This document shows positions 25,771 through 58,433 of a stretch of 64,000 bases of DNA, piece after piece. The DNA is from a virus. Under the pieces are notes generated by a model that did not search any database, had not been told where the DNA came from, and worked only from the letters and a program-made list of their open reading frames with translations. The DNA is taken from positions 23,388 to 87,387 of IMG/VR virus record IMGVR_UViG_3300043409_002272. One strand, 5' to 3'. A program made the translations under genes and the position numbers. Numbering within the stretch: position 1 is the stretch's first letter; the number at the start of each line of letters is the position of its first letter.

Positions 25771-27396
25771 CTAAATTTGAACAACAGTTTTAACTAAAAG
25801 AGAGTCACTTTTTTTGTCTCGTTCACCTTGAATCAAGACTGTATTACCCTCTTTTAACAAAGAAGCAAAATCTTTGTACGAGTTTGGAAAACAGATAACA
25901 TCATCTATTTTTCCAGTAGCATCAGATATTGATAAAAATGCCATTCTAGATCCCGGTGTTTTTCCAGCTTTTGTAAGTACTTCTTTAGACCTTCTTACTT
26001 CAACACCAAAAACCATATAACCATTCTTTCCATCTAAGTATTCTTTGCATGTAGTGTTAGAACTACTTGTATCGCAGGAATCTGTAGCATTATATGTTAA
26101 AGAAATCCCTAAAGAGTCCTTTTCAATCCAACAAACCCAACTTGGAATATCTATTAATGGAGAAGGGGGATTTTTAATCATAGAGGCAATGCTTTTTAAA
26201 ACCTCAACTCTTTTGACTGAGGAACAACAACCACCTTCTTTTTTTGTGTTTGCTGAGTTTAAAATCATATCTGATATGTTAGTGATTTCAGCATTGGCTT
26301 TTATCCATTCTCTTTCTTTATCTGTTAATTCACACCAAGCATTAAATTCTGCAAGAAGAACCTTCCTTTTGCTTCCAAATTTTCTTAGTCCATTAACAGC
26401 AATTAATTTTTCAATACTTGATTTTGGCATTTCATCAGAACATTTAACAACAAATTCTTCCCAAGAATCTATGCTTTTGCCATAATTATTTATAGCAAGC
26501 TTAATTTTTTCAAATTGAGATTGGCCAATTCCTTTTACATCAGTAATACCAAACCAAATTGATATTCCATCAGTATAGAAATTGCTATTTAGCATCATTA
26601 AATCTGGAGGCTCAACAATTATGTTAAATTTTTTTGCATCTTCAATTAGATCTGATATTTCAAGTTGGCTATCTGCCTTGTCTTTAGCAAAATAAAGCCA
26701 GCTAGTAAAAAATTGAACTGGAAAGTGACTCTTTAAATAAGCAGTATCATATCCAATTAAACCATAACAACAACTGTGACTGCGATTAAAGGAATATTTT
26801 TGACTCTGTTCAATCCATCCAAATATTTCTTCAGCTTGATCTTCTGAGACTACTTCTATCTTTTTAGCACCCTCAATAAACATCTTCTTACATTTTGCCA
26901 TTTCACTAGATGATTTCTTTCCCATTGCTTTACGAAGCATATCTGCCTCTTGCAAAGTGAATCCAGCGATAACCCTAGAAAGTTCCATTGCCTGTTCTTG
27001 AAAAACAAGCGATCCGTATGTTGATTTAAGTGCTTCATCAACAATAGGATGATACGATGAAATCTGTTCCTCGCCATTTACAATACGACAATAATGTGCG
27101 GTCATACTAACGCCCTTATCGTCAACAGAACGCAAAGCTCCTGGCCTTATCAGTGCTCCAAGAGCAGTTAAATGTTCAACAGTCTTTGGTCTTAATTTCT
27201 TAGACCACTGTTTTCCAAGATCTGACTCTAATTGAAAAATTCCTTTTGTATCGCCTCTAGAAAATATATCCCAAGCAATATCGCAAGAAGGTAGATTGGT
27301 TGGGTCTACTTCCATTAGAGGCAAAGAATTTTTGGTTAAAGGATCTCCAATTATTGGAAAACTACAACCGCATGAAAACTTGTATGTTTTTGTCAT
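25771..27396 (-). CDS. dnaE: DNA polymerase III alpha subunit, C-terminal half (split DnaE)
   Basis: The 541-residue protein starts at ATG 27396. From residue 40 it continues cellular DnaE exactly where the 28303-30219 product stops: TKGIFQLESDLGKQW, a LGALIRPGALRS finger segment, FQEQAMELSRVIAGFT, LRKAMGKKS, FNRSHSCCYG, then a helix-hairpin-helix-like region and a C-terminal OB fold (MAFLSISDATGKIDDVICFP). It supplies fingers, clamp-binding and OB domains but none of the three catalytic aspartates. The first 35 residues (FSCGCSFPI) are not DnaE-like and may help assembly. It must pair with the N-terminal half to work. Confidence 0.88.
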   Translation of the reverse strand: MTKTYKFSCGCSFPIIGDPLTKNSLPLMEVDPTNLPSCDIAWDIFSRGDTKGIFQLESDLGKQWSKKLRPKTVEHLTALGALIRPGALRSVDDKGVSMTAHYCRIVNGEEQISSYHPIVDEALKSTYGSLVFQEQAMELSRVIAGFTLQEADMLRKAMGKKSSSEMAKCKKMFIEGAKKIEVVSEDQAEEIFGWIEQSQKYSFNRSHSCCYGLIGYDTAYLKSHFPVQFFTSWLYFAKDKADSQLEISDLIEDAKKFNIIVEPPDLMMLNSNFYTDGISIWFGITDVKGIGQSQFEKIKLAINNYGKSIDSWEEFVVKCSDEMPKSSIEKLIAVNGLRKFGSKRKVLLAEFNAWCELTDKEREWIKANAEITNISDMILNSANTKKEGGCCSSVKRVEVLKSIASMIKNPPSPLIDIPSWVCWIEKDSLGISLTYNATDSCDTSSSNTTCKEYLDGKNGYMVFGVEVRRSKEVLTKAGKTPGSRMAFLSISDATGKIDDVICFPNSYKDFASLLKEGNTVLIQGERDKKSDSLLVKTVVQI

Positions 27397-27400
27397 ATTA

Positions 27401-28039
27401 TTATTTCTTAAATGAGTCTTTAAATTTAACTTTTGGGTATATTGATCTATGTAGTTTTAAGAAGTATGTGATTAAGTCTGCTGTTTGCTCAACATCAACT
27501 AGTGCATCATGAGCATTGGCCTTTGACATTCCAAAATGATCTCTAATGGTATCCATTTTCATATTAGGCATATCATCTGAATTTTCAAACCAAAGCAGCA
27601 TCATTTCATCTAGATCAAACATGCTTCTTTTATTAAAGAAAGATTGTGTAGCATTTGGCTGAACATATCCTAATTCAATACAGACTCTTTGAAAAATCGG
27701 CATATCAAAAAATCTAATGTTTTTTCCTGCTGGAACAGGGGCTAATATATTACTTTTACCAACTGCAAAAGTAGATATAAAATCAATAAACCTACTCCAA
27801 ACAACATCAAGATTAGGTGCAAGCTGAAGTTCTTCTCTTGTCTTTTTGTTTACTGCTAGTGCTGCTTCTTGTAAGTTATTAAAGTCTCTAGGTTTTACAA
27901 GACTATTAAATACCGCACCTTCTATTGGTTGAAGAGTTTTCCTATTTATTGCCTTTGCAGCAATTTGAATAACTTCACAAGTATTTGTATCTAAAGATCC
28001 TGTTTCAAAATCAAAAACAATAATCGTATTACTCTTCAT
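27401..28039 (-). CDS. DnaQ-like 3'-5' exonuclease (proofreading subunit)
   Basis: The 212-residue protein starts at ATG 28039 with an AGGAG site, overlapping the preceding small gene by 11 bases. DEDDh motifs: ExoI FDFETG (D10, E12), an ExoII-like segment NIRFFDMPIF, and ExoIII HDALVD (H177, D182). Its place between the two halves of DnaE strongly suggests it is the epsilon-like proofreader of this polymerase. Confidence 0.85.
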   Translation of the reverse strand: MKSNTIIVFDFETGSLDTNTCEVIQIAAKAINRKTLQPIEGAVFNSLVKPRDFNNLQEAALAVNKKTREELQLAPNLDVVWSRFIDFISTFAVGKSNILAPVPAGKNIRFFDMPIFQRVCIELGYVQPNATQSFFNKRSMFDLDEMMLLWFENSDDMPNMKMDTIRDHFGMSKANAHDALVDVEQTADLITYFLKLHRSIYPKVKFKDSFKK

Positions 28040-28310
28040 CGTCTTCTTCTCCTTTAATAGTTAGTTCTATTGATCCATCATCATTTTGCTGTATTTTAAG
28101 TTCAACTTCCGCATCTTCTGCTGAATCTAAAAAATCCTTATCTATAAATAATATTCCTCCATTTTGAATTGTTATCGCTTTTAATAGTTTATTAGCCTGT
28201 TTAACAAGGTCTTTCTTTAAAGAAGAACAATCAGATAAAGCATCCAACAAGGCTGTTTGCTGAACTACTAATTTGCTTATTATAGATATTTCAAGAGAGT
28301 TGTCATTCAT
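28029..28310 (-). CDS. Small acidic hypothetical protein in the polymerase operon
   Basis: The 93-residue protein starts at ATG 28310 with AAAGGGGA, overlapping the end of the N-terminal dnaE gene by eight bases. The N-terminal half is helical. The C-terminus is beta-like and acidic (KIQQNDDGSIELTIKGEEDDEE). No family recognised. Position between split polymerase genes suggests a small accessory role. Confidence 0.6.
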   Translation of the reverse strand: MNDNSLEISIISKLVVQQTALLDALSDCSSLKKDLVKQANKLLKAITIQNGGILFIDKDFLDSAEDAEVELKIQQNDDGSIELTIKGEEDDEE

Positions 28311-30219
28311 TTGGTTTCCCCTTTAAAATATTTATACAACCCATTATCTTATCTAAAACTGCAACTCCAAGTATGTCAAACTTAACCATACCAATTGATT
28401 CTAAATCTGACATTTCCAGACCAGCTATCATTTGTTTTGTTTTTTTATCAAATGTCATTGGGCATACTTCTGATAATGGAATATTGCTAATAACTATACC
28501 AGCAGCATGTTTACCTTGACTCCTTTTTGTTCCTTCTAATCTTATTGCTTGTGCAAATTCCTTTGCTAATCTTCCAGAGTAAGTTCCATCCTTTTCAATC
28601 TTGCAATACTCAGATAATCTATCAGGAATATTCTCTAATGCCCACCTTATTATTGAAGAATCTCCATCTTCATCTTTCATATCTTGTAGCTGTTCAGATA
28701 TCTCTGATTCATCTGGAATATATTTTGTTACATTGTTGCTTTCCTCAAAAGAAAAGCCGTGAACTCTAAGAACATCTTTGAGTGATCCACGACCCTGCAT
28801 ACGACTAAATGTTATCATTTGACAAACATTGCTACTTCCATACTTTTGCTTTATATATTCTATTACCTTATCACGCTTTGTAATTGGAAAGTCACAGTCA
28901 ATATCTGGCAAACTTATACGACCAGCAGAGTTTCTTCCTGCATTATAAAATCTTTCAAATATAAGAGAATGTTTAATTGGATCTACTTCTGTTATTCCTA
29001 AAAGGTAGGATATCATGCATCCAGCACCAGAACCCCTACCTCTACCCATAATCCACCCCTTAGACTTTGCCCAATTGCAATAGTCCTGCACAATTAAAAA
29101 GTATCCAGCTAAACCCGAAGTATCTATAACTTCAAGCTCATGCTTTATTCTCTCTGTATATTCCTTGTATTCATCTGTTTTTGGCTTTATTTCAGAAAAA
29201 CGCCTATTCCACCCATCTCTGCATAACTTCCTCAAATAAAGGATCTGAGAAAGCCCATCTGGACAAGCAAAGTTTGGTATGGCTGGTTGTTTTATAAGTG
29301 AATAACTTTCACATAAACTATCAATTAAACAGCAATTACTTATTTCATCTTCTTCATGAAAGCTAGATATCTCTTCAATTGTTGGAAGATAGTATCTATT
29401 TGATTTAAAGAATACGGAAAGTCCAAATTCTTCGTTATTTTCTAATTTGCTATTTACATTTTTTAAAGTTGTTTCCATTGAAGAACACAACAAAACCCTT
29501 TGATCAGGAGCATCTTCTGGCATAACATAATGAACATCTGGAGTTGCTATTTTTTTAATTCCAGTTTTAGCACAAAGTTCTCTCAAGCATTCCGCAATAA
29601 CTTTTGATGCAACTAAATTAGAACTATCAAACAATTGTATTTCTACAAAAAAATTGTCTGCCCCAAATATGTCTGTATACTCCGAACAAATGTTTCCAGC
29701 TTCATTCAACCAATTAGGCTTAAGCATTTCTTTTATTTCATCATAATCGGTTCTTTTGTATGCTTCTTTATAATCCTCAAATAAGCAGTTTGCCAAATCG
29801 GTTCCTGGGTGACCAGAGAAAGCAATTAGATCACCGCAAACTCCTTTAAAGTCATTTAAGTTTAATCTTGGTTTATAATAAAAATAATCTAAAGAATTGG
29901 CTAAAGAAGATAGATTAATTAAGTTTTTCCATCCATTTAAATTCTTAGCAATAACGCATAGATGAGTCAAACTTGAGTTTTCTTTATTTTGTTCTATTGC
30001 TGGTTTTTTACAAATATAAAATTCACAACCAATAATTGGCTTTATACCTTGTGAAATACAAGCTTTAGAAAAAGAAATAGCACCAGATATAGTTCCATGA
30101 TCAGTTATAGCACATGAAGTATATCCAAGCTCTTTGCATCTTTTTGCTAAAAGATCTGGCTTACTTAATCCATCCAACAAACTATAATGTGTATGACAAT
30201 GCAATGGTATCCAATTCAT
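28303..30219 (-). CDS. dnaE: DNA polymerase III alpha subunit, N-terminal half (PHP + palm)
   Basis: A 638-residue protein. ATG 30219 has an AAGGA site; a TTG two codons earlier is too close to it. The PHP domain is at the N-terminus: HCHTHYSLLDG (H7, H9, H11), ITDHGT, PIIGCEFYI, PDVHYV. The palm has PDIDCDF with D441 and D443, and VKFDILG with D615, so all three catalytic aspartates are here. It ends 20 residues after VKFDILG. There are no intein splice motifs at the break, so the halves probably associate non-covalently. PHP ligands look largely intact. Confidence 0.9.
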   Translation of the reverse strand: MNWIPLHCHTHYSLLDGLSKPDLLAKRCKELGYTSCAITDHGTISGAISFSKACISQGIKPIIGCEFYICKKPAIEQNKENSSLTHLCVIAKNLNGWKNLINLSSLANSLDYFYYKPRLNLNDFKGVCGDLIAFSGHPGTDLANCLFEDYKEAYKRTDYDEIKEMLKPNWLNEAGNICSEYTDIFGADNFFVEIQLFDSSNLVASKVIAECLRELCAKTGIKKIATPDVHYVMPEDAPDQRVLLCSSMETTLKNVNSKLENNEEFGLSVFFKSNRYYLPTIEEISSFHEEDEISNCCLIDSLCESYSLIKQPAIPNFACPDGLSQILYLRKLCRDGWNRRFSEIKPKTDEYKEYTERIKHELEVIDTSGLAGYFLIVQDYCNWAKSKGWIMGRGRGSGAGCMISYLLGITEVDPIKHSLIFERFYNAGRNSAGRISLPDIDCDFPITKRDKVIEYIKQKYGSSNVCQMITFSRMQGRGSLKDVLRVHGFSFEESNNVTKYIPDESEISEQLQDMKDEDGDSSIIRWALENIPDRLSEYCKIEKDGTYSGRLAKEFAQAIRLEGTKRSQGKHAAGIVISNIPLSEVCPMTFDKKTKQMIAGLEMSDLESIGMVKFDILGVAVLDKIMGCINILKGKPNE

Positions 30220-30247
30220 GTTCAATCCTTAAATTTTTTTCAATTAA

Positions 30248-53344: not shown

Positions 53345-53734
53345 TTAAATATCCTTCTTTGAAAATCTCCTAGATATAAGCTTACAAAGTTTTATAAAAT
53401 ACTTTTCGTTTAAACTCATCTTCATATAGTTAACATCTTTATGAACCCACTGTATATTTCCTTTGGTGTAGTCAAGACTACTATTCTTCCTATCTAACGA
53501 TGCTGTTCCTAAAGAATAAATATCTTTATTGTTAATTCTTTTTAAATATTTTTTATGGGTTATTTTTAATCCAGTATAAAAACATCTTTTGTTCTGTTTT
53601 AAGAAAATTTGCCAAGCTTCTTCTATTGTTGCTTTTACTTGTATGTTTCTTTTTTTTGCATTTTTTTTCAATGAAGACCAATATTTTCCAGAAATTTCGC
53701 CAAAAGTTTTACTATTATGAGACTTCTTTTTCAT
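53345..53734 (-). CDS. HNH-like endonuclease (free-standing)
   Basis: A 129-residue protein. ATG 53734 follows TATGGGGGTAATC; a frame to 53776 is longer but lacks a site. The core RCFYTGLKI...TASLDRKNSSLDYTKGNIQWVHKDVNYMK matches phage HNH-family proteins with an SLDR-x-GN-x-Q-x-V-x-N signature. The basic N-terminus may contact DNA. Probably a homing-type enzyme. Its ribosome site lies in a hairpin (53741-53766). Confidence 0.65.
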   Translation of the reverse strand: MKKKSHNSKTFGEISGKYWSSLKKNAKKRNIQVKATIEEAWQIFLKQNKRCFYTGLKITHKKYLKRINNKDIYSLGTASLDRKNSSLDYTKGNIQWVHKDVNYMKMSLNEKYFIKLCKLISRRFSKKDI

Positions 53735-53740
53735 GATTAC

Positions 53741-53766
53741 CCCCATACTAATACACAGTATGAGGG
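53741..53766 (-). promoter_or_regulatory. Hairpin covering the ribosome site of the HNH gene
   Basis: In the RNA sense CCC-T-CATACT pairs with AGTATG-GGG across a seven-base loop, with one unpaired base. The 3' arm includes the GGGG ribosome site, ending about eight bases before ATG 53734. Free-standing and intronic homing nucleases of T4-like phages use such hairpins to block translation from long early transcripts. Whether that happens here is inferred. Confidence 0.6.
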
Positions 53767-53781
53767 CGAAAGACAAAAAGA

Positions 53782-54156
53782 TTATTTCATAGAGACATTT
53801 TGTGGTTTGTTGGTTTTGAATGCAGTAGACTCATTCTTCCAACCAAATTGTTCTAGTGCTGTATGATAACCACTAGTCCATGAACCATCTGTGTAAAGCT
53901 TTGCACAAGACTCCCAACCATCACGATATGCACCAGATCCAGTTGGTGAGCCAGCCCTTAAAATAGCATCCCTATAGCCATTTTCATAAGTTGGCTTGCC
54001 CCTCTCTGCATAAATTTCATCTTTTAGGATTCTATTTTCAGCAGCAAAAAGCTCTTTAATTGTTGTATTTTTGTTAGTTTCTACTACATACATATGACTA
54101 ACATAGATTGAATAACCGAAAAAAACCAAAGCAATAGAGCCAAAAAACTTGTTCAT
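53782..54156 (-). CDS. Membrane-anchored protein from an internal start (124 aa)
   Basis: Alternative product of the same frame from ATG 54156, preceded by GGAG at proper spacing. It starts with a single hydrophobic segment at residues 4-20, then a soluble domain (TYENGYRDAILRAGSPTGSG, WTSGYHTALEQFGW). Probably the original gene; the HNH domain joined upstream. Function unknown. Confidence 0.55.
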   Translation of the reverse strand: MNKFFGSIALVFFGYSIYVSHMYVVETNKNTTIKELFAAENRILKDEIYAERGKPTYENGYRDAILRAGSPTGSGAYRDGWESCAKLYTDGSWTSGYHTALEQFGWKNESTAFKTNKPQNVSMK

Positions 54157-54498
54157 AATGTTTCTCCAAAAAGAAATAGGTTTACTAAAACTCTTAACTG
54201 TAAATTGTTTTACTCTTTTGTGATGCTCTTGGCAATCCCTAATTACTTCTGGATTAAAATTTTTGTAATTGTGCAAGTGACCAAAAACAAAATGACAAGT
54301 AGTGCAAAGAGTAACCAAATTTTTAATGTCTAGTTCTAAATTTTTATTAGATGAAAATGGAATTATATGATGGCACTGTAATTCTTTTTTACTTCCACAA
54401 GCATAACAATATGGGTTTTCTTTAATCCACTTATTTCTAACTGTTTGCCATTTAGATGATCGTTCTGATGAAAATATATTTAAAAAAAAACTAATCAT
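53782..54498 (-). CDS. HNH endonuclease domain fused in frame to a membrane-anchored protein
   Basis: The 238-residue frame starts at ATG 54498. Residues 30-75 are an HNH nuclease: C31-x2-C34, H43-H44, N60, C65-x2-C68, H69, H74. From M115 the sequence is a separate protein type: a membrane anchor (NKFFGSIALVFFGYSIYV) then a soluble tail with SPTGSGAYRDGWESC. Codons 110-114 encode TTGGAGAAACATT, a strong ribosome site ending 7 bases before ATG 54156. Two products (238 and 124 residues) are therefore likely, or the HNH stop codon was lost. Confidence 0.75.
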   Translation of the reverse strand: MISFFLNIFSSERSSKWQTVRNKWIKENPYCYACGSKKELQCHHIIPFSSNKNLELDIKNLVTLCTTCHFVFGHLHNYKNFNPEVIRDCQEHHKRVKQFTVKSFSKPISFWRNIMNKFFGSIALVFFGYSIYVSHMYVVETNKNTTIKELFAAENRILKDEIYAERGKPTYENGYRDAILRAGSPTGSGAYRDGWESCAKLYTDGSWTSGYHTALEQFGWKNESTAFKTNKPQNVSMK

Positions 54499-55167: not shown

Positions 55168-55446
55168 ATGAAAAACAGAATAAAGGAAAGTCAACAAACA
55201 CTCAAGGCTTATTTTAAGGGCAAGATTGATTTTCTCAATTTAAACACCATAAATTTTACCAAAGAAGAATTTATTTTATTTAAAGAAATAATAAGAAAAG
55301 CTTATTCAACTGGCTATATATCTGAATCTGAATTTATGGAAATAACTCTAATAGTTGGAAAAGATGTTGGTCACTTAAACTCATTTGGCTTTATAGAAAA
55401 GAGCGTAGTCCAAATATTTTGTGACATAGCTAGTGAGGAACTATAG
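55168..55446 (+). CDS. Hypothetical protein
   Basis: The 92-residue protein starts at ATG 55168 with an AGAGGTCAGT site, 25 bases from the divergent GNAT gene, so a two-way promoter must lie here. Helical and charged (TKEEFILFKEIIRKAYSTGY). Its 3' end overlaps the cupin gene by 17 bases. No family recognised. Confidence 0.6.
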   Translation: MKNRIKESQQTLKAYFKGKIDFLNLNTINFTKEEFILFKEIIRKAYSTGYISESEFMEITLIVGKDVGHLNSFGFIEKSVVQIFCDIASEEL

Positions 55447-55783
55447 TTTTGTCAAATTGATCATCAAAGCTGGATGATTCAAGTAATACGCTTTGTTTCA
55501 TTGATGTTATCATATGTCTTTGGTTTGCTCCCACAAAAATACAATCACCTTGTTTTAAAAGCTCTATATGTGCCAAATTTAAGTCATCGGTGTCAGATAT
55601 GTGTATTGACACCTCTCCAGACAATATATAAAAATAAGACTCTTTTTCGGCATGGTAGTGCCAGCTTGTTTGTTTAAAAATATCCATCTTTAATATTTTC
55701 AAACATATCTCTCTAAAAGATTCGTTTACTACTGTTTCCTCACTGCCCCACTTTTTAAGTGTTATGTCAGCTTTAAACTTCAT
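55430..55783 (-). CDS. Cupin-domain protein
   Basis: A 117-residue protein. I chose ATG 55783, where conserved sequence starts (MKFKADITLKKWGSEETVVN), over an ATG 28 codons upstream. Cupin motif 1 is SWHYHAEKESYFYILSGEVSIHI with the metal-binding His/His/Glu; motif 2 is near GDCIFVGANQRHMIT. Similar to mannose-6-phosphate isomerase/RmlC-type cupins. It may be a sugar isomerase-like or binding protein of the glycan system. A long structured gap precedes it. Confidence 0.75.
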   Translation of the reverse strand: MKFKADITLKKWGSEETVVNESFREICLKILKMDIFKQTSWHYHAEKESYFYILSGEVSIHISDTDDLNLAHIELLKQGDCIFVGANQRHMITSMKQSVLLESSSFDDQFDKTIVPH

Positions 55784-55800
55784 TACAAATACCCCTTCTT

Positions 55801-56080
55801 TACCCTGATAGCATAGCATCAGAGTTCTTTTGTTTACTTTCAGTGTGCTATAAACTCTACCAAACAAGACATTAATTAAGAATTTTGTGCTTTGCTCTAT
55901 CAGGTCTAAGTGGAGAAGGGGTCACTCCGATCTTAGTGTTGATTCTTAATTAAACTTTTCGTGCCACCTGTTAAGAGTTTGGCTACTCTATGGCAGTCTT
56001 TGGGTACATACCCTGGTGTTATGATCGCTTCGGGGAAAGAACTGCGAAAGAACCGTTATTGAATTTGATAACGCAGTTAC
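55801..56080. ncRNA. Hairpin-rich gap, candidate structured RNA
   Basis: Positions 55784-56076 hold no convincing gene. I see, in order: ATAGCA/TGCTAT with AGAGTT/AACTCT inside (about 55808-55858); a 12-bp inverted repeat TTAATTAAGAAT (55872-55883) with ATTCTTAATTAA (55942-55953); inside it CTAAG-T-GGAG...CTCC-GAT-CTTAG (55906-55936); then TGCCA(AGAGT...ACTCT)TGGCA (55962-55995); GGGT-ACAT-ACCC (56002-56013); and AACTGC(GTTAT...ATAAC)GCAGTT (56040-56078). G+C is clearly higher than around it. The strand is unknown: it could be a separate RNA or the leader of the cupin gene. Confidence 0.5.
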
Positions 56081-56358
56081 TTATGATCACAATCTTGTAT
56101 ATAGCTGTCTACATTCTCAATACGCAATGCAAACATATAACTATGGTTGCTATTTTGCAATACGAAATCCTTAACTTTTTTGCTATTTTTAATCTTTCTT
56201 TTATCACCTATACAAACAACTTTTTCTAATAGTTCAATTGCTTTCTTATCAGATGATGCACAAAGAATTATTGATATGCACCCATCTTTTGTTATTTTAG
56301 CTTTATATTTATTTTTATTTTTAAGAATTGTTATTTTTACATGATATGTTTTGATCAT
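56077..56358 (-). CDS. Hypothetical protein
   Basis: A 93-residue protein from ATG 56358; an ATG 13 codons upstream is also possible. Mixed alpha/beta with TYHVKITILKNKNKYKAKITKDGCISIILCASSDKKAIELLEKV read as strands and helix. The ribosome site is weak. Opposite-strand frame at 55990-56229 is rejected. Function unknown. Confidence 0.4.
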   Translation of the reverse strand: MIKTYHVKITILKNKNKYKAKITKDGCISIILCASSDKKAIELLEKVVCIGDKRKIKNSKKVKDFVLQNSNHSYMFALRIENVDSYIQDCDHK

Positions 56359-56436
56359 TAAATACCACAATGTTTTCGGTGAGATTTTCAAATACACATA
56401 CGCTAATACAGTCTACATACTGGTGTATAAATAAAT

Positions 56437-57634: not shown

Positions 57635-57847
57635 CTATTCTACTCTTAAATTTATTTGTGTTTTATCAATAACTTCTAAATTTAAATCGTTGTTTGAAAT
57701 AAATTGTTTAGTTTTTTCTAGAACTAAATTTGCATGTTCATCATTATAACAATCAAAAACATATGCATCTTTCTTTAAATTTGTTAATCCAACTTCTGGT
57801 TGTTTGCAAAAAAATTCTCCAGACATGTTTCTAATTATTACTTTCAT
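57635..57847 (-). CDS. Small hypothetical protein
   Basis: The 70-residue protein starts at ATG 57847 with the excellent site AAGGAGGAATCAAT. Short alpha/beta chain (MKVIIRNMSGEFF...AYVFDCYNDEHANLVLEKTKQFI). No family recognised. It diverges from the adenosyltransferase gene. Confidence 0.55.
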   Translation of the reverse strand: MKVIIRNMSGEFFCKQPEVGLTNLKKDAYVFDCYNDEHANLVLEKTKQFISNNDLNLEVIDKTQINLRVE

Positions 57848-57920
57848 ATTGATTCCTCCTTATAGTTTAGTAATATATAATAGTATTCGTTTTAACAACC
57901 AAAATATTCAAGAATTTAAA
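57848..57920. promoter_or_regulatory. Divergent promoter region between 57847 (-) and 57921 (+)
   Basis: On the + strand a perfect TATAAT lies at 57876-57881, about 40 bases before the adenosyltransferase ATG; on the - strand the same AT stretch reads TATTATATATTA ahead of AAGGAGG. No good -35 element is evident on either strand. Confidence 0.4.
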
Positions 57921-58433
57921 ATGAAAATATATACAAAAACTGGTGATGACGGAACTACACTTTTGCCAAAAATAGGTAGAGTACCTAAAACTAATCCTAA
58001 TATACAACTTCTTGGTAGTATTGATGAGCTTAATGCTTGGATTGGATTTGTTAATCAAAAGTATATTTTAGAATTAAAAGTCCATGAAGTGTACGAATTT
58101 ATAATAGAAATACAAAATCTTCTTTTTGAAGTTGGTGCAGAAGTGGCTACTGGAAAAGAAAGGATAAAAGAAGAACACATTAAAAAAACAGAAGACATTA
58201 TTGATTTGATGACTAAAAGTTTAAAGCCATTAAAGAATTTTATAATCCCATTCAATCATTGTGAAATTCATTTGACTAGAGCAGTATGCAGAAGAGTTGA
58301 AATTGATTTAGTCAGACTTATGGAAGCACATCAAGATTTTAAAAACATTGTTGTATTTATAAATAGACTTAGCGATTTCCTATTTACTTTAGCAAGATTG
58401 CTTGGTCCAGAAGAAAAGATATGGCATGGTTAA
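57921..58433 (+). CDS. ATP:cob(I)alamin adenosyltransferase, PduO type
   Basis: A 170-residue protein. ATG 57921 is where conservation starts (MKIYTKTGDDGTT); a longer frame from 57804 runs through the divergent gene. All PduO signatures are visible: TKTGDDGTT, IDELNAWIG, TRAVCRRVEIDL and FINRLSDFLFTLAR. It attaches the 5'-deoxyadenosyl group to cobalamin, making coenzyme B12. The likely customer is the class II ribonucleotide reductase at 41939-44230. No clear ribosome site, so it may start near a leaderless transcript. The stop overlaps the opposite-strand gene by four bases. Confidence 0.88.
   Translation: MKIYTKTGDDGTTLLPKIGRVPKTNPNIQLLGSIDELNAWIGFVNQKYILELKVHEVYEFIIEIQNLLFEVGAEVATGKERIKEEHIKKTEDIIDLMTKSLKPLKNFIIPFNHCEIHLTRAVCRRVEIDLVRLMEAHQDFKNIVVFINRLSDFLFTLARLLGPEEKIWHG

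Follow-up and report, generated by a model that had tools for sequence, protein, structure and literature searches.

The window, the whole stretch of 64,000 nucleotides analysed here, forms part of a viral contig of 87,387 bases and carries genes of a tailed phage, including those for a tape-measure protein, a DnaB-type helicase, a primase, a DNA polymerase and a ribonucleotide reductase, the phage's polymerase being about 34% identical to the best matches listed from a phage collection. This polymerase is of bacterial type (phrog_405; 25771–30225, minus strand) and consists of two ORFs (28303–30225 and 25771–27396) separated by an exonuclease-subunit ORF (27401–28039, phrog_192). An unusual metabolic gene, encoding cobalamin adenosyltransferase, lies at 57804–58433 on the plus strand (Pfam PF01923, E 7e-45). 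Closer to the element described below, an adjacent ORF pair (53345–54498, minus strand) comprises a longer ORF that encodes an HNH endonuclease (53782–54498) and a shorter one that resembles it by eye (53345–53776). The T4-type late promoter word TATAAATA occurs at 23 sites in the window against 12 expected, a count reached by no shuffle, and one of these sites (56426–56433, plus strand) stands immediately ahead of the start of a HAD gene. The element itself occupies the gap between a cupin gene and the orphan ORF P0002, both on the minus strand (Table 1).

The chain of hairpins that an earlier note on this DNA had described in the gap is borne out, with the hairpins forming parts of a larger element. 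Its 12-bp inverted repeat is exact (TTAATTAAGAAT at 55872–55883 and ATTCTTAATTAA at 55942–55953) and encloses a second hairpin (55906–55936), G+C content peaks at about 0.45 against 0.23–0.33 in the flanks, and no credible gene crosses the gap, no reading frame being open throughout, or conserved across, the element in nine divergent members. The extent first proposed, 55801–56080, falls in the right region and is slightly short: the conserved, covarying element spans 55791–56105, about 315 nt, with ends that delimit the covarying and conserved block rather than mapped transcript ends. Similarity to relatives drops to about 50% at 55785, past 56105 it is reduced and irregular, and the conservation edges coincide with the terminal helices. 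The note had overlooked the strand, the pseudoknots and the way in which the element overlaps the upstream gene's 3′ end.

Protein- and pattern-based scans of viral contigs, verified by nhmmer and a covariance model, place the RNA in 30 further IMG/VR contigs, giving at least 31 related viral contigs, each of the nine records that were searched whole, the window's own included, holding a single copy. The RNA is 75–97% identical to that of the window, compared with 60–91% for the neighbouring genes; in the most divergent members (L024, L040, L042 and L043 types) it retains 75–89% identity, against 60–79% for the P0002, GNAT, MKNRI ORF and cupin genes at the same loci. In L009, the RNA is 97% identical to the window's and P0002 only 72%, or 59% at the protein level. 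Both in L009 and in L044, P0002 is only 59% identical to the nearest query protein, next to an RNA, cupin, MKNRI ORF and GNAT gene that match the window at 87–97%; this pattern suggests that P0002 alone was replaced locally or evolved rapidly. Among sequenced phages, no relative was returned by distant blastn searches from two members or by tblastn from P0002, the best DNA match being a 33-nt fragment, and two pattern scans of GTDB genomes yielded 0 matches and then three that the covariance model rejected. Two contigs taken up as candidates, L025 (a loop-pattern match) and L073 (from a later scan), proved unrelated. The RNA is most likely lineage-restricted, and the source metagenomes of several RNA-bearing contigs are presumably freshwater lakes, which is the basis for calling it aquatic.

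Twelve helices are present in all members, comprising nested P1, Pa, Pb, P2, Pd, Pe1, Pe2, P3, Pf1 and Pf2 together with pseudoknots H1 and H2. Comparison of the members' sequences establishes a fold in which a long-range stack of P1, P2 and P3 holds three domains, Pa/Pb, Pd/Pe and Pf, and in which the 3′ tail folds back into two pseudoknots, pairing with the Pf loop to form H1 and, as established more weakly, with the Pf-adjacent strand to form H2. In the Infernal alignment A8, which covers the P2–P2′ domain over 158 positions, 98.0% of the 507 pair cells of the core are standard pairs, compared with 89.7% in shuffles and 35–48% with slid partners (45–48% for a one-base slide). Both sides change in 18 of the 39 core pairs, a figure matched in 0 of 500 shuffles. 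Across the whole RNA, a hand segmentation of 14 full-length members, in which no letters were altered, reveals covariation in 22 of the 75 listed pairs, H1, P1 and Pa included; L042 is left out of this count and enters the P2/H2 comparison and A8. The covariation of P2 and H2 is confined to L042, and Pe is invariant, so that covariation neither supports nor opposes it. Single-stranded stretches are also invariant, namely GGUUCUU, UGUC, CGAAA and AGCCAA.

Table 1. Structured RNA, its helices and the adjacent genes, in window positions.
Feature	Position	Strand	Pairing partner	Remarks
Whole structured RNA	55791–56105	−		P1 (5′ end, 56105) to H1 (3′ end, 55791)
P1 5′ strand, GCUAUA	56100–56105	−	UAUAGC, 55847–55852	In last P0002 codons; two covarying pairs
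Pa 5′ strand	56085–56092	−	56019–56026	Interior covariation at four pairs; outermost position frequently unpaired
Pb 5′ strand, AACUGCG	56072–56078	−	56040–56046	Overlaps P0002 stop codon (56077–56079); one covarying pair (C-G to G-C, L052)
P2 5′ strand, ACCA	56014–56017	−	UGGU, 55859–55862	Both end pairs co-change in L042 (GCCG/CGGC)
Pd hairpin, GGGU-AUGU-ACCC	56002–56013	−		4/4 pairs covary
Pe hairpin	55962–55995	−		UGCCA/UGGCA and AGAGU/ACUCU; loop AGCCAA
P3 5′ strand	55942–55953	−	55872–55883	The 12-bp repeat; 8/12 pairs change on both sides
Pf hairpin, within P3	55906–55936	−		Pf1 55932–55936/55906–55910, Pf2 55925–55928/55912–55915; four covarying pairs in total
H1 5′ strand, ACCCCUU, Pf loop	55916–55922	−	AAGGGGU, 55791–55797 (RNA 3′ end)	Pseudoknot; one covarying pair (C-G to A-U)
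H2 5′ strand, CCUGAUAG	55897–55904	−	CUAUCAGG, 55804–55811	Pseudoknot across P1, P2, P3; one covarying pair, in L042
P0002, 93-aa orphan protein	56077–56358	−		3′ end overlaps RNA; no family match
Cupin gene (Pfam Cupin_2)	55430–55783	−		Just downstream of RNA; missing from 14/31 contigs
92-aa orphan ORF (MKNRI...)	55168–55446	+		Where cupin absent: 0–6 nt from RNA 3′ end, opposite strand, 13 contigs

The 5′ strand of P1 corresponds to the Ser-Tyr codons that end P0002, and changes between the Ser codons AGC and AGU are compensated about 250 bases away in non-coding sequence, generating the variants GCUAUA/UAUAGC, GUUAUA/UAUAAC and GCUAUG/CAUAGC. In all 31 contigs, P0002 lies directly upstream of the RNA, on the same strand and overlapping it, and the RNA accompanies each of the P0002 relatives retrieved. 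The protein is small, basic and lysine-rich; nothing solid emerged from Pfam, PHROGs or PDB, the sole weak profile match, to ribosomal eL38 (E 0.3), marks a stretch that is a lead at most, and the AlphaFold model is poor (pLDDT 47). Around this constant gene, the cupin gene, the MKNRI ORF and the HAD gene beyond P0002 come, go or move among the 31 contigs: the HAD distance ranges from 322 to over 6,700 nt, and beside the RNA of L024 neither a cupin gene nor the MKNRI ORF was found. Genes therefore enter and leave around a fixed P0002–RNA unit. At the position directly upstream of P0002 (56359–56436 in the window; L009, L042, L043 and L059), glycosyltransferase, nucleotidyltransferase and methyltransferase-like genes occur that differ by phage, which suggests an insertion hot spot.

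The absence of the cupin gene also bears on the suggestion of a large cupin leader, which loses its footing as the primary role: the RNA, together with its compensated 3′ pseudoknot arm, occurs in the 14 contigs without cupin and is therefore not a cupin leader. Where cupin is present, the 3′ arm of H1 (GAAGGGG) precedes the cupin ATG by about 9 nt, so the arm may secondarily control cupin.

The view of the element as a new non-coding RNA without a known family is strongly supported by the covariation and by the Rfam search that the earlier note had proposed alongside an alignment for compensatory changes; neither a lack of covariation among relatives nor a conserved coding frame, which it had named as grounds for giving up the idea, was encountered. 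Specifically, Rfam 15 gives no match at gathering score for the window, and at E up to 10 the window element, L024, L042 and L043 draw chance matches only, the sub-threshold matches being to miRNA, snoRNA, lncRNA and Alpha_RBS models. The GOLLD and ROOL covariance models do not match the RNA either, and ARAGORN detects no tRNA or tmRNA genes in the 64-kb window. A tmRNA identity was set aside, ARAGORN and Rfam having revealed no tRNA-like domain with a tag frame. Among the papers listed by searches of the open literature, none evidently describes the RNA, which is weak evidence. A new RNA family is well supported.

GOLLD and ROOL are ornate RNAs of phages and prophages, lineage-patchy, highly structured and of unknown function, with multiple pseudoknots in ROOL, a name partly drawn from lake sequences and many members exceeding 800 nt in GOLLD, and a frequent but not defining association of both with tRNA islands (PMC12286853). 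The present RNA is likewise phage-encoded, lineage-patchy and highly structured, with multiple pseudoknots as in ROOL, whereas at about 315 nt it has no tRNA genes nearby, matches neither model and is tied to one small protein gene. It is a new family inside a known broad kind, because it is GOLLD/ROOL-like in kind yet lacks a model match and neighbouring tRNA genes and is far smaller than GOLLD. Group I introns and HDV-like and glmS ribozymes possess compact cores of interlocked pseudoknots with invariant single strands, both of which recur here; the order of helices differs, however, with the 3′ tail pairing with a hairpin loop and with the strand beside it, no Rfam model matches, and the RNA is intergenic without an exon junction. 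TnpB reRNAs overlap the 3′ end of a co-oriented gene, an arrangement that the RNA shares with the omega/reRNAs of TnpB and IscB, but P0002, at 93 aa, shows no similarity to nucleases, and neither transposon ends nor a guide segment are seen. A resemblance to riboswitches and protein-binding leaders lies in the pseudoknot arm at the ribosome-binding site in cupin phages, although the RNA is conserved also in phages with no co-oriented downstream gene there.

The RNA is placed on the minus strand, with high probability, because of its interior wobble changes and its A-rich single strands. Seven interior changes (P3 pairs 2, 4, 5 and 8; Pa pairs 3 and 6; H2 pair 7) are G·U on the minus strand and A·C on the plus strand, and the unpaired minus-strand bases are 40% A and 24% U, compared with 28% each among paired bases; A-rich unpaired bases are typical of known structured RNAs. 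Additionally, in 13 of 14 members the consensus nested fold has at least as good an energy on the minus strand as on the plus strand. Placement on the plus strand, where the RNA would run antisense to the 3′ end of P0002 and, in cupin-less phages, come after the MKNRI ORF, would accommodate about four helix-end changes as G·U (H1-1, Pa-8, Pf1-5 and H2-8, with Pa-8 a poorly paired helix end among the 75 listed pairs) and gains from fold energy, the window reaching z = −3.9 on the plus strand (0 of 100 shuffles as good) against −1.2 on the minus strand (better than 88 of 100 shuffles), with a lower free, unconstrained MFE on the plus strand in most of the window's clade. Yet this advantage is gone in L043-type members, the plus-strand MFE fold omits P1, P2 and P3, the unpaired bases would be U-rich, and L024 carries the RNA without an MKNRI ORF; taken with the seven A·C events, these points make the plus strand improbable. 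The RNAalifold plus-strand fold, a long H1/H2 hairpin lacking P1–P3, was dropped and replaced because P1, P2 and P3 covary. The same strand-biased wobble and A-rich unpaired strand, together with compensatory changes in many helices including the pseudoknots, point to RNA rather than to a DNA element such as a replication origin, packaging or recombination site whose hairpins would act as single-stranded DNA. The single copy, the non-coding inverted repeats and the variable gene content beside P0002, as at an insertion hot spot, would suit such an element, but direct-repeat or iteron arrays are absent, and the origin or recombination site raised earlier, disfavoured on these grounds, is very improbable indeed.

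Among the roles open to a minus-strand RNA, a self-cleaving or otherwise catalytic ribozyme with a nested double pseudoknot is brought to mind by two pseudoknots closing on a hairpin and by long invariant single strands, which resemble a catalytic or ligand-binding core; the failure of any Rfam ribozyme or intron model to match the window or three divergent members at E up to 10, along with the lack of a visible consistent cleavage or splice junction, renders it a doubtful candidate. A cis-acting 3′ or intercistronic element of the P0002 operon, serving mRNA stability, feedback on P0002 or translational coupling to the next gene, would explain the overlap with the P0002 stop codon and the constant co-orientation: the fold would open when P0002 is translated to its stop codon, and in cupin phages the H1 3′ arm, at the ribosome-binding position, could hide the cupin Shine-Dalgarno sequence. 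This reading is rather unlikely, however, as conservation of the RNA, invariant loops included, exceeds that of P0002, an uncommon pattern for an autoregulatory site, and the H1 helix is maintained by a compensatory C-G to A-U change in members without cupin.

The reading we favour, at about an even chance, is a new phage-encoded family of structured RNA that derives from the 3′ part of the P0002 transcript on the minus strand and acts in trans as a scaffold or RNP. Family, fold and linkage are established here by comparative analysis, and we infer transcription and function from them. Neither a promoter nor a terminator of the RNA's own was found. The RNA would be transcribed as the 3′ part of the P0002 message, and translation of P0002 to its stop codon would keep P1, Pa and Pb open; because these helices overlap the last codons and the stop of P0002, folding would follow once the ribosomes leave. 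The RNA would then be trimmed or persist as a stable species, acting in trans during infection as a compact scaffold or as part of an RNP, for which the small, lysine-rich P0002 would be the most plausible partner. The co-occurrence of RNA and P0002 in 31 of 31 contigs agrees with such an RNP, and P0002 is a candidate partner by virtue of linkage, which could be passive, since the RNA overlaps the end of the P0002 gene. A more specific proposal, which we offer tentatively, is a two-part phage system in which an orphan basic protein, together with an RNA of several pseudoknots encoded at the tail end of that protein's gene, would constitute an RNP or protein-assisted ribozyme acting on the host during infection.

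Because phage genomes are compact, a stretch of about 300 bases under stricter conservation than protein genes points to an important role. To our knowledge, only a small number of phage RNAs reach this complexity, and GOLLD and ROOL, the best known of them, are still without an assigned function. With its smaller size, its pseudoknotted fold backed by covariation, its single-copy locus and its constant partner gene, the RNA described here makes structure and function directly testable.
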